From Pseudomonas sp. B21-028 (GTDB lineage Bacteria > Pseudomonadota > Gammaproteobacteria > Pseudomonadales > Pseudomonadaceae): 64,000 nt of DNA. Below, one piece after another: positions 18,355 to 21,526 of the stretch. Positions within the stretch are counted from its first letter, which is position 1; each line of letters opens with the position of its first letter. Below the pieces are notes generated by a model. It did not search any database and had not been told where the DNA came from. It saw nothing but the letters and a program-made list of their open reading frames with translations. Position numbers and translations under genes: made by a program. The DNA is taken from positions 1-64,000 of the forward strand of contig NZ_CP087184.1 in the NCBI RefSeq assembly GCF_024749045.1, given 5' to 3'.

Positions 18355-19143
18355 ATGAAAATCGACTTCACCGGCCGTTACGTTTTAGTCACCGGTTCCA
18401 CCAGCGGCATCGGTTTTGCCACAGCCAAAGGCTTTCTCGAAGCCGGCGCCCACGTGGTCATCAACGGTCGCAGCGAGAGCGGCGTGCAGGACGCATTGCA
18501 GCGCTTGGGCGAGCTTGCTTCCAAAGCCGAAGGCTTTGTGGGCGACCTCAGCAACGCGTCAGGCTGCCAGGCATTGGTCGCCAAGTACCCGCGTTTTGAT
18601 GTGGTCATCAACAACCTGGGCATCTTCAAGCTGGAAGATTTCTTCGATACGCCGGACAGCGAATGGCAACGCTTCTTCGAAACCAACGTGATGTCCGGCG
18701 TGCGTGTGTCCAGGGCTTATGCGCAGGGCATGGTCGAGCGTGGTTGGGGGCGGATTGTGTTTGTCTCGTCGGAATCTGGCGTGAATATTCCTGCTGACAT
18801 GATTCATTACGGTTTCACCAAGACCGCCCAACTCTCCATTGCTCGCGGCCTGGCCAAGCGCCTTGCCGGCACGGGGGTTACGGTGAATTCGGTGCTGCCT
18901 GGGCCGACGCTGTCCGAAGGTGTCGCCCAGATGCTTCAAGCGGACGTCGAGCGTACAGGGGAAAGCCTGGAAAAGGTGGCGGCGGATTTCGTCAATGAGC
19001 ATCGCAGTACCTCGATCATCCAGCGCGCGGCGCGGGTCGAGGAAGTGGCCAACATGATCATCTATGCCAGCTCGGAGCAGGCCTCGGCGACCACGGGTGC
19101 GGCGCTGCGGGTCGATGGAGGTGTGGTGGACAGCATTGTCTAG
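18355..19143 (+). CDS. SDR-family NAD(P)-dependent oxidoreductase
   Basis: Classical short-chain dehydrogenase of 262 aa. The N-terminal cofactor motif is TGSTSGIGFA (TGxxxGxG), followed by a DLS acidic turn and the NNLG equivalent of the NNAG motif. The catalytic Ser is in VFVSSESG, and the Tyr and Lys are in MIHYGFTKTAQ (Y-x3-K), so the active site looks intact. LPGPT follows. The start ATG 18355 has AAGGAG upstream. The substrate is unknown. A palindrome lies in its promoter region and a strong hairpin terminator follows. Confidence 0.9.
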   Translation: MKIDFTGRYVLVTGSTSGIGFATAKGFLEAGAHVVINGRSESGVQDALQRLGELASKAEGFVGDLSNASGCQALVAKYPRFDVVINNLGIFKLEDFFDTPDSEWQRFFETNVMSGVRVSRAYAQGMVERGWGRIVFVSSESGVNIPADMIHYGFTKTAQLSIARGLAKRLAGTGVTVNSVLPGPTLSEGVAQMLQADVERTGESLEKVAADFVNEHRSTSIIQRAARVEEVANMIIYASSEQASATTGAALRVDGGVVDSIV

Positions 19144-19204
19144 CGGGTGTAGCGGTAAACCTGTGGATAACTTTCCCCGTCAAGGATCGATTGAGCCGTA
19201 GTGA

Positions 19205-19244
19205 CAAACGCCGCTTGCTCCTTGGGGACAAGCGGCGTTTTCTT
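19205..19244 (+). terminator. Bidirectional terminator between the SDR gene and the repeat-protein gene
   Basis: AAACGCCGCTTG and CAAGCGGCGTTT form a 12-bp perfect stem with an 11-base loop. A TTTTCTT tail lies on the plus strand. It separates the two convergent genes. Confidence 0.85.
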
Positions 19245-19297
19245 GAAAGCAACATTTGGCTGATCCGAACGGGCCTTCAGGGCGATGAGGGATTTAA

Positions 19298-19663
19298 TCA
19301 GGCTGTCCTGTTTTGCAGCCGATCCGAGCCCCCTTCAGCCACACGGTTTTCGATCAGTCGGTCCGAGCCCCCTTCGGCTACGCGGTTTTCGATCAGTCGG
19401 TCCGAACCGCCTTCAGCCACCCGGTTTTCGATCAGCCGATCCGAGCCACCTTCAGCCACCCGGTTTTCGATCAGCCGATCCGAGCCGCCTTCAGCCACCC
19501 GGTTTTCGATCAATCGATCCGAGCCCCCTTCGGCCACCCGGTTTTCGATCAATCGATCCGAACCGCCCTCTGCAACCGTAGGTTGAACAAGAGAGGCAGC
19601 AAACGCATTGCCGAGCGACAGTGCCAGAAGCGAGCCAACGAGTGTTTTGCGGAAAGTGTTCAT
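19298..19663 (-). CDS. Secreted tandem-repeat protein, seven units of VAEGGSDRLIENR
   Basis: A 121-residue protein with an N-terminal signal peptide (MNTFRKTLVGSLLALSLGNAFA, cut near AFA-AS). The rest is six identical 13-residue units VAEGGSDRLIENR plus a seventh ending VAEGGSDRLQNRTA. No known domain is evident. Similar Pseudomonas repeats carry vague labels such as phage infection protein; I do not adopt a function. The ATG has AAGGA about 7 bases upstream and lies 31 bases after ohr on the same strand with no clear terminator between, so co-transcription with ohr is plausible. The copies differ only by synonymous codons. Confidence 0.82.
   Translation of the reverse strand: MNTFRKTLVGSLLALSLGNAFAASLVQPTVAEGGSDRLIENRVAEGGSDRLIENRVAEGGSDRLIENRVAEGGSDRLIENRVAEGGSDRLIENRVAEGGSDRLIENRVAEGGSDRLQNRTA
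19308..19575 (-). repeat. 39-bp tandem coding repeat
   Basis: About seven head-to-tail units of 39 bases encode the 13-residue repeat. Differences between units fall at synonymous positions (for example GGG/GGC/GGT, GAT/GAC, CGA/CGG, TTG/CTG, GCC/GCT). Confidence 0.92.
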
Positions 19664-19694
19664 GTTCTGATCCTTTTATTTGTAGGGAAGTGAG

Positions 19695-20114
19695 TCAGAC
19701 GGCGACGTGCAAGCGGACGTCGACGTTGCCGCGGGTCGCTTTGGAGTACGGGCAGACTTGGTGAGCGGCGTCGACCAGCGCTTGAGCATCGGTTTGATCC
19801 AGGCCCGGCAGGCTGATGTGCAAGTCGATGTCCAGACCGAAACCACCAGGAATCTGGCCGATGCCAACGTGTGCCGTGATCGAAGCGTCAGCAGGAATGC
19901 TGCGTTTGCTTTGGCTGGCGACAAACTTCAGTGCGCCAATGAAGCAAGCCGAGTAGCCCGCTGCGAACAGTTGCTCTGGGTTGGTGGCTTCGCCGCCAGC
20001 TCCACCCAAGGCCTTTGGTGTGGCCAGTTTCACGTCGAGAATCTTGTCGCTGGAAACAGCACGGCCATCACGGCCACCGGTAGAGGTTGCGACTGCGGTG
20101 TAGAGAACGTTCAT
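19695..20114 (-). CDS. ohr: Organic hydroperoxide resistance protein (Ohr)
   Basis: Thiol peroxidase of the Ohr/OsmC family that reduces organic hydroperoxides using lipoylated proteins. The 139-residue product starts MNVLYTAVATSTGGRDGRA. It has the two catalytic cysteines in the contexts AGYSACFIGAL and AHQVCPYSKATRGN, and the family Arg and Glu residues. The upstream region contains two GCGC-centred palindromic sites that could bind OhrR. No ohrR gene lies in this window. The downstream repeat-protein gene follows after 31 bases. Confidence 0.96.
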   Translation of the reverse strand: MNVLYTAVATSTGGRDGRAVSSDKILDVKLATPKALGGAGGEATNPEQLFAAGYSACFIGALKFVASQSKRSIPADASITAHVGIGQIPGGFGLDIDLHISLPGLDQTDAQALVDAAHQVCPYSKATRGNVDVRLHVAV

Positions 20115-20168
20115 GGTATTTCCTCTTAGCTTGATGATCTGATTTGTCTATTTTGATTTGCACTAAAT

Positions 20169-20223
20169 GTTTGTGCGCTAACCAGTTGCGATAAAATTAA
20201 CGCTCAAATAGTTTGCGCGCAAT
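20169..20223 (-). promoter_or_regulatory. Putative OhrR-type operator region of ohr
   Basis: TTGCGCGCAA (20213-20222) is a perfect palindrome, and TTGTGCGCTAA (20171-20181) is a related site about four helical turns away. Both lie in the AT-rich region before ohr. Assignment to OhrR is inferred from position. Confidence 0.4.
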
Positions 20224-20344
20224 GCAAATTTTCAAAATTCTTCTCGATTACTTATAACCCTATGATCTGTAAGAAAATTTATTTTCAGATGACGAGGAAG
20301 GACGTCCAGAGACGCACTAGAGAAAGGAGGGTGAGCCTGTCGAC

Positions 20345-20370
20345 ATAAAAAAACCGCCGATTAGGCGGTT
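20345..20370 (-). terminator. Terminator after the diguanylate cyclase gene
   Basis: AACCGCC-GATTA-GGCGGTT stem. On the minus strand it is followed by a run of seven T, just downstream of the cyclase stop. Confidence 0.88.
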
Positions 20371-20398
20371 CTGGTTCCTGCGCCGGGCAAATCCAACG

Positions 20399-21526
20399 CT
20401 ACAGGGCCACCGCCACCTGATTGCGCCCCAACGCCTTCGCCCGATACAACGCCTTATCCGCATTATTCATCAAGCTATGCAGATCCTTATGCCCAGCCTC
20501 CGTCGACGCGACGCCGAGGCTGGCCGTTATCCCGTGGACAGGCTCGATCATCAACCCGCCAATGGTCTGGATCAGTTCTTCTGCAATCCTGATGGCGACC
20601 TCAATGGAAGTATCCGGAAGCAAAATCGCGAACTCCTCCCCACCCAGCCGACCGTGAATGTCAGTCGCACGGAAGGACGAACTGATGACCACACCCATCT
20701 GGCGCAACACCTGATCCCCAACCTGATGACCATAGGTGTCGTTGATCTGCTTGAAGTGGTCCATGTCCAGCATCACCGCACATAACCCCAGCCGGTTGGT
20801 TTTACAGTCGTTGTAGAGCCGTTGGGCATGTTCGAAAAAAGCCCGCCGACTCTTCAGGCCGGTCAGTTCATCGGTCTGGGCTGCGCGGGTAGAAATACTG
20901 TTCGCCTGCTCCATTTCACGGGTCAGTCGGAAAGCGGTTTCCAGTGCCTGGGACATTTTGTGTGTAGCGCGGGCGACAAAGGCCGCGAACACCAGAATCG
21001 AGACTGCCATGCCAACCTGGATCGGGGACGGTTGGAACAACAGCCAGGCGGTGCACGGCAACAGCACCAGGCCAATGGAGACGAGCGTCATGTCGCGGTA
21101 GGCCGAGTAGCAAGACACCGCGCTGACGGACATGCCGACTGTAAAGAGCATGACCAATGCCTGAGCCAAGAGATCGTCCGCCGGCATGACCGCCAATGCG
21201 CCTCCTCCCCAGATGCTGGCGGACAACACCAGCGTGACCCAGTATTTGCGTTCCCAGCGTTGAGGCGTGCGTTTGCTTTCGTCGCTACGCACATAGGCAA
21301 CGAATAACGATACGCGCAGCAGAGTCGATCCACTCAGGATAGCCAGCCACCAGAAGATGACACTGTGGTCAAAGCGATCCCAGCACAGCCAACAGAGCAT
21401 GATGGCCGCGAGGTAGCTGCCAAAAACCGCCGAAACCGATTGGCGAAAGAGTTGCTGCAGCCGGTCGGTTCGCACCTGCTCGGCGATGAACAAATCCTGG
21501 TCATCCCGAGATCCTAGGCAACCCAT
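20399..21526 (-). CDS. Membrane diguanylate cyclase (GGDEF domain)
   Basis: Synthesises cyclic-di-GMP from GTP. The 375-residue product has about five to six hydrophobic segments in residues 30-190 and a C-terminal GGDEF domain starting DELTGLKSRRAFFEH. The active-site loop is GGEEF. Five residues upstream is an inhibitory I-site RATD (RxxD), so product inhibition is likely. I start at MGCLGSRDDQD (21526), with AGGTGA upstream, rather than at the earlier ATG at 21616. The sensor part is an uncharacterised membrane module. Confidence 0.9.
   Translation of the reverse strand: MGCLGSRDDQDLFIAEQVRTDRLQQLFRQSVSAVFGSYLAAIMLCWLCWDRFDHSVIFWWLAILSGSTLLRVSLFVAYVRSDESKRTPQRWERKYWVTLVLSASIWGGGALAVMPADDLLAQALVMLFTVGMSVSAVSCYSAYRDMTLVSIGLVLLPCTAWLLFQPSPIQVGMAVSILVFAAFVARATHKMSQALETAFRLTREMEQANSISTRAAQTDELTGLKSRRAFFEHAQRLYNDCKTNRLGLCAVMLDMDHFKQINDTYGHQVGDQVLRQMGVVISSSFRATDIHGRLGGEEFAILLPDTSIEVAIRIAEELIQTIGGLMIEPVHGITASLGVASTEAGHKDLHSLMNNADKALYRAKALGRNQVAVAL

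Follow-up and report, generated by a model that had tools for sequence, protein, structure and literature searches.

A predicted exported tandem-repeat protein encoded directly behind ohr in Pseudomonas belongs to a family widespread in its genus and looks like a chimera with the leader of a secreted hydrolase

The question raised by this locus is why a gene for a protein built almost wholly of identical 13-residue units should lie directly behind a Pseudomonas gene for organic hydroperoxide resistance. The repeat-protein gene occupies positions 19298-19663 on the minus strand of the window, i.e., the whole 64,000-nucleotide stretch that was analyzed, and encodes 121 amino acids. Translation of this open reading frame bore out the anatomy described in a first-pass annotation: a 22-residue signal peptide (MNTFRKTLVGSLLALSLGNAFA; 19598-19663, minus strand) is followed by a 7-residue spacer, by six identical VAEGGSDRLIENR units of 39 bp each (19343-19576, minus strand), delimited by repeat finding and unit comparison, and by a variant seventh and last unit, VAEGGSDRLQNRTA, read from the sequence (19301-19342, minus strand). 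Tandem Repeats Finder reported a period of 39, 6.5 copies, 90% matches and no indels. The signal peptide, as judged by eye, is classical, with an AFA-type end and no lipobox cysteine, and it is on this visual reading that the prediction of a secreted protein, exported via Sec, rests.

The upstream gene (19695-20114, minus strand) encodes Ohr, the organic hydroperoxide resistance protein, and matched TIGR03561 at 186.3 bits against a cut-off of 88.85. It is one of four copies over that cut-off in the genome, which has one additional match below it; two further Ohr-type genes (2920741-2921127 and 2929655-2930041) lie 9 kb apart. The stop codon of ohr (19695-19697) is separated from the ATG of the repeat gene by 31 nucleotides, and this gap holds a ribosome-binding site for the repeat gene, AAGGA (19671-19675, minus strand). 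The spacing, the shared strand and the ribosome site were all read directly in the sequence and agree with the first-pass annotation, as does a terminator scan that placed no terminator-like site in the gap. The scan of 19100-20450 gave three sites against a shuffle mean of 1.7. A weak terminator-like site of six pairs falls within the signal-peptide codons of the repeat gene (19613-19597, minus strand), and a terminator-like site at 20350-20372 divides ohr from an upstream GGDEF gene. The probable end of the operon is a strong hairpin, AAACGCCGCTT...AAGCGGCGTTT (19206-19240, minus strand; -24.5 kcal/mol), 3' of the repeat gene. In the window this hairpin has a weak T-tail, which is why the terminator scan did not list it; the tail is long in five of seven other ohr-linked loci. 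Because this hairpin follows the repeat gene and a junction of 26-35 nucleotides recurs at nine loci, ohr and the repeat gene are likely to be co-transcribed. A simple scan found no sigma-70-like promoter in 19100-20450.

A second ohr in the same genome, at 1.9106 Mb, bears on how the operon may be controlled. It adjoins a MarR-type regulator gene, taken to be ohrR, and a gene for a secreted alpha/beta-hydrolase (Abhydrolase_3) lies downstream. The window ohr region and this second ohr region aligned at 76% from the promoter through the ohr stop codon, and the two genes have a promoter in common. The promoter element in the window, TTGCGCGCAAACTATT (20207-20222, minus strand), fits a pattern that occurs in the second ohr promoter and nowhere else genome-wide. 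That pattern, TTGCGCGCNAANNATT, was present in all ten promoters aligned (nine of the window type and the second ohr of this genome) and has exactly two occurrences in the 6.49-Mb genome, one before each of the two ohr genes; since it was drawn from the promoter alignment, the two sites are no test of it and it is its absence elsewhere that is informative. One account gives the OhrR core as AATT-N-AATT (PMC4999210). This core differs from TTGCGCGCAA, and the second ohr promoter has it in imperfect form; a predicted site in the window promoter, AATTTTGAAAATT (20227-20239, minus strand), fits it.

The pairing of ohr with the hydrolase gene recurs at other loci. Of 59 genomes, 40 had a hydrolase match at E 1e-100 or better, and in 20 of 30 fetched hydrolase loci an Ohr gene lay 23-51 nucleotides upstream. 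Two more loci, clipped by contig ends, have Ohr and fall outside the distance count, a third has a 67% Ohr with a gap of 41 nucleotides, and the seven that lack Ohr all have less similar hydrolases. The repeat protein has the same type of leader. A leader model was built from 16 hydrolase leaders, which match it by construction; the signal peptide of the window protein scored 38.8 bits against it and the nine ohr-linked repeat leaders scored 30.8-41.7 bits, compared with 14.6 bits for the best N-terminus, in a set of 394 signal-like ones, that is neither hydrolase nor ohr-linked repeat, and at most 3.5 bits for the leaders of other repeat-family members. Direct alignment of the repeat leader with the hydrolase leader of the same genome scored 75, whereas the best of 1000 shuffles scored 39.

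The window type of leader was found in nine distinct proteins, each with Ohr directly upstream, and within this one lineage the link to ohr is real. The Ohr proteins of these loci are 97-98% identical to that of the window, the ohr-to-repeat-gene junctions are those of 26-35 nucleotides noted above, and the orthologues have from 5 to 11 units. A match to residues 1-83 makes G152 a likely tenth. The ohr-hydrolase operon and the window operon are thus alike in promoter element (within this genome), in ohr, in junction length and in signal-peptide type; they differ in that the second product is an enzyme in one and a repeat array in the other. The repeat gene therefore looks like a chimera, in which the hydrolase body of a duplicated ohr operon was swapped for a repeat array. 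In the simplest history the promoter, ohr, junction and signal peptide would have been kept and the array would have come from the repeat family.

The first-pass annotation had proposed a peroxide-inducible operon that exports a repeat peptide, and this proposal stands in part. Co-transcription is likely, and the case for peroxide induction is better than could be known at the time because the promoter duplicates that of the MarR-adjacent ohr and the shared site is unique to the two; these arguments, drawn from sequence comparison, suggest induction by peroxide. What the proposal did not foresee is that the repeat family mostly sits outside ohr operons and that the leader of this copy appears to be borrowed.

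The homologue search that the first-pass annotation had advised uncovered a family of tandem-repeat proteins with predicted export that is widespread in Pseudomonas. Of the 199 genomes of the genus that were sampled, 190 had a match at E 0.001 or better and nine had none. In the order sample, 7 of 194 genomes matched, namely this genome, three others of the genus and three of a second genus in the same family, and the one match among 274 genomes of the class sample was this genome. Several repeat genes often occur in one genome. Here, a 13-unit gene at 2.227 Mb has the VAEGGSDRLIENR unit, other genes have the 13-residue units LAEDGYNSTPQGQ (E 4e-10) and VAEDGFDRTGGAT (E 3e-7), and a gene with LAADGADHVGAKG units, also of 13 residues, at an E value of only 0.012, was assigned by eye from its pattern. 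A search of this genome with the DNA pattern for AE[GDE]GxDR gave 29 matches, 27 in four repeat genes and two elsewhere, and the reversed control gave none. The 100 fetched loci gave 105 distinct proteins, and 786 of the 788 motif-to-motif spacings in these were 13 residues. VAEGGSDRLIENR made up 412 of 786 units in a census that used a motif filter (G5 fixed, positions 2-4 and 6-8 limited, each last unit dropped); because resemblance to the window unit decided which loci were fetched, all unit percentages lean to the window type. The relatives in the second genus have a similar leader, longer units (18-22 residues; VAENGSSQTVDRLHKQLG and VADNGSERTIDRLHKQMDEAR are examples), and a PtrA-like end, AESGGDTVYDAHLK. 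This neighboring genus has two such tandem repeat genes (L228 and L229), whose units are of 18 and 21/22 residues and which have the PtrA-like C-terminal motif AESGGD(T/I)V(Y/F)DAHLK. At locus L129, a repeat gene is broken within the array, where two frames overlap and one base is ambiguous; this may be either a real break or an assembly error.

The repeat family is apparently undescribed. Pfam and NCBIfam hold no model specific to it, searches of Pfam and PHROGs with the window protein gave weak, chance-like matches, and no solved structure was related to the protein at E 10. When seven relatives were scanned against Pfam, two had short hits over cut-off, to DUF6356 and SH3_16, which were taken for repeat artefacts; a TIGR03620 match of 33 bits against a cut-off of 220 was likewise dismissed as a repeat hit. 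No paper contained the repeat-motif strings in the literature searched, which covered text and not figures. A phage origin found no support, with no match in the phages collection and no relative among 15 pattern matches in viral_contigs. Plasmid copies are rare (2 of 72,556 records), and one of these, from another genus and annotated as a pentapeptide-repeat protein, is probably unrelated. A plasmid of Pseudomonas asturiensis carries a relative with VAADGADRVGANR units between methyltransferase and hypothetical genes, with glycosyltransferase genes farther out (L212).

Neighbors of the repeat genes were surveyed at the 100 loci with flanks of 1.5 or 4 kb; 36 neighbor clusters occurred in at least four loci, and 24 of these were identified with Pfam and 12 were not. 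No constant partner gene was seen across the 100 loci. Ohr was directly upstream in nine, a 49% Ohr lay about 3 kb away in one, and 90 had no Ohr in the flanks. Most relatives adjoin other genes and thus peroxide is not the general trigger of the family. The more frequent neighbors included a DUF1615 lipoprotein (37 loci), glutathione S-transferase (19), chorismate mutase (9), an RskA-type anti-sigma factor (9), cupin (7) and ecotin (6), together with a PqiC-like, paraquat-inducible-type lipoprotein at nine loci, six of which have MlaD and five PqiA. Redox and envelope genes recur near repeat genes, though the family is no general peroxide system.

Several individual loci deserve mention. PqiA, MlaD-domain and PqiC-like genes occur with glutathione S-transferase near the repeat genes at L104, L114, L124, L134, L137 and L138, the 13-unit gene of this genome is among those near paraquat-inducible-type genes and glutathione S-transferase, and the PqiC-like lipoprotein is present additionally at L002, L046 and L065. 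Ecotin, a periplasmic inhibitor of trypsin-type proteases, is encoded near repeat genes at L045, L047, L078, L087, L092 and L107, a group that includes the longest repeat gene, with 21 units. Given the arginine-rich repeats its proximity is suggestive, and it is local to one set of loci. The fifth, weakly matching repeat gene of this genome, with LAADGADHVGAKG units (about 2.4668 Mb; L233:4826-5446), is divergent from an adjoining OsmC-family gene, in a region where third-position GC is lower; this may be a second connection to the Ohr/OsmC superfamily, independent of the first.

The first-pass annotation had argued from synonymous differences among the 39-bp units for selection on the peptide over recent duplication alone. 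In the six identical units, 9 of the 39 columns are variable and all of the changes are synonymous, as it had seen; taken by itself the observation is circular because identity of the encoded peptide was the ground on which these units were picked. The comparison between units and between strains was therefore run as pN/pS, in uncorrected proportions, with every unit counted in 13-codon steps that began at the first motif and ran to the end. In the window array, including the shifted tail of unit 7, pS was 0.48 and pN 0.08. The larger set, which excluded strains Leaf48 and GD03944 as well as locus L105, comprised 41 genes and 344 units from 19 genomes with at least two loci. Within these genes pS was 0.440 and pN 0.055, a pN/pS of 0.125; a motif-filtered version lowered pN to 0.047. 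Values were similar between same-genome paralogues (25 pairs; pS 0.487, pN 0.059) and among the nine ohr-linked orthologues (36 pairs; pS 0.544, pN 0.066, pN/pS 0.12). The window gene and the 13-unit paralogue gave a pS of 0.69 and a pN of 0.055, and 10 of the 13 units of the paralogue encode the window 13-mer while differing from the window units at no fewer than 5 of 39 nucleotides. Among 385 units taken without a motif filter, A2, E3, G4, G5 and D7 were invariant, L9 was present in 99.7% and R13 in 98.7%. The repeat peptide is thus under purifying selection, and the sameness of the units goes beyond recent copying.

AlphaFold2 predicted no structure beyond the signal helix and no strands for the repeat protein (mean pLDDT 41), a low value that rests on a 16-row alignment of repeats and may reflect poor input. 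A long-unit relative from the neighboring genus was predicted to be weakly helical (pLDDT 48). A beta-solenoid fold was considered and received no support from the model. The mature chain is acidic (pI 4.7), 34% charged, and free of cysteine, histidine, methionine and aromatic residues. Our best guess from the models is that it is intrinsically disordered.

The nearest approach to a known family is to PtrA. The repeat protein scored 67.5 bits against NF041599, over the cut-off of 31, as a sum over seven short stretches of which the best reached 12.5 bits (model positions 13-30 of 46); the model as a whole spans a signal peptide and the motif. Other genomes have single matches that score as high as 86 bits and cover positions 1-45 or 1-46; this genome had no single-domain match at E 1e-4. 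Family membership was therefore rejected as a sum of short hits, and the resemblance, as read from these alignments, is one of a seven-residue motif. Thirty PtrA-type loci were fetched (L182-L211) and 27 were readable, three being clipped; the mature proteins begin with AEGG[GSA]DR in 26 of the 27 and with AESGGDR in one, which suggests that this N-terminal motif is itself functional. PtrA (PA2808) has been described as periplasmic and copper-induced (PMC7763554, PMC8872213, with the localization paper PMC3133295 as cited there). PtrA-type proteins and the repeat protein share the motif directly after the signal peptide and a place among exported, in the case of PtrA stress-induced, Pseudomonas proteins, but the former have one motif and a body whereas the latter has the motif with a five-residue linker seven times and no body.

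We tentatively propose, with somewhat less than even confidence, that the repeat protein is a disordered, multivalent, Sec-exported envelope protein made under organic-peroxide stress as the second cistron of an OhrR-type operon. An ohr operon would have been duplicated and its hydrolase body replaced by the array of another repeat-family member. Organic peroxide, through OhrR-type control, would induce ohr and the repeat gene together, and the product would be exported via Sec and presumably retained in the envelope. There it would display many copies of one motif, AEGGSDR with a short linker, at a strength tuned by unit number, and the motif may bind proteins of the envelope, lipids or material damaged by peroxide. 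A motif kept so strictly suggests a definite partner, and the PtrA-type N-termini point likewise. Counting against this proposal are the missing sigma-70-like promoter in 19100-20450, the weak terminator-like site in the leader, the mismatch to the OhrR core and the location of most relatives elsewhere. Hydrophilins and KGG-repeat stress proteins such as GsiB are glycine-rich, charged, repetitive, disordered, stress-linked and cytoplasmic. As proposed here, the repeat protein resembles the GsiB type in all but the last respect; it differs in its predicted export, in its repeats and in the strict identity of its units. Such near-complete conservation of most unit positions exceeds what would be required of a loose disordered protectant and favors either a precise partner or a released peptide.

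Release of a peptide is the main rival explanation: a trypsin-like cut after the last arginine of each unit of a multicopy precursor would yield identical 13-mers that signal to neighbors or a host. We consider this unlikely but worth serious attention, since unit identity is under purifying selection, Arg13 is nearly constant in the 385 units, the number of units changes and a signal peptide is present. Such a cut would also sever the internal Arg-Leu of each unit, however, several related unit types lack arginine at the joint (ends TGGAT, TPQGQ, VGAKG and HKQLG), and the 24 identified of the 36 neighbor clusters included no protease for processing, no exporter of peptides and no modifying enzyme. 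In the precursors of yeast alpha-factor and the fungal dikaritins, a signal peptide is followed by near-identical units that end in basic residues. The repeat protein shares this layout, but its gene has no recognized processing or modifying enzyme alongside, and cleavage is the rival and not the preferred reading.

Tandem repeats, length variation, predicted export and several copies per genome would also suit an adhesive, gel-forming or amyloid-like polymer of the outer surface or biofilm matrix. This is distinctly improbable for a chain that is 34% charged and lacks aromatic residues, a lipobox, any anchor sequence that could be seen and any predicted strand, solenoid or confident fold. Slightly less probable still is a diverged member of the PtrA copper-tolerance family that buffers periplasmic metal: the summed NF041599 score, the AEGG[GSA]DR start of mature PtrA-type proteins and the ending of neighboring-genus repeat proteins in AESGGDTVYDAH, like PtrA-type N-termini, speak for it, and the piecemeal score, the missing PtrA body and the lack of histidine, cysteine and methionine in the mature protein speak against it. 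We give very little credence to a selfish or neutral gene cassette that spreads by recombination and has no cellular job, for which the many unlinked insertion sites and the copy-number changes can be cited, in view of the pN/pS of about 0.12 with all units counted, the near-invariant 13-residue spacing and the retention of the ohr-linked copy at nine loci.

A wider idea, speculative and on balance unlikely, is that Pseudomonas has an as yet undescribed modular export code in which AE(G/D/N)GS(D/E)R with exchangeable linkers is tandem-amplified; a peroxide signal would then be converted into a multivalent ligand or a pool of 13-mers for a receptor in the envelope or on neighboring cells, with unit number setting the dose. 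If true, one motif would be amplified behind interchangeable leaders and promoters. Whichever reading holds, a strongly selected family that is present in nearly every sampled Pseudomonas genome, often in several copies, and for which the libraries searched have no model and the literature searched gave no motif hit, marks a genuine gap. Among its members the ohr-linked copy offers the best way in, as it has a likely inducer, organic hydroperoxide, and a defined operon, and with promoter and leader alike it allows a clean evolutionary contrast of an enzyme body with a repeat array. Together, these features make the function of the family directly testable.
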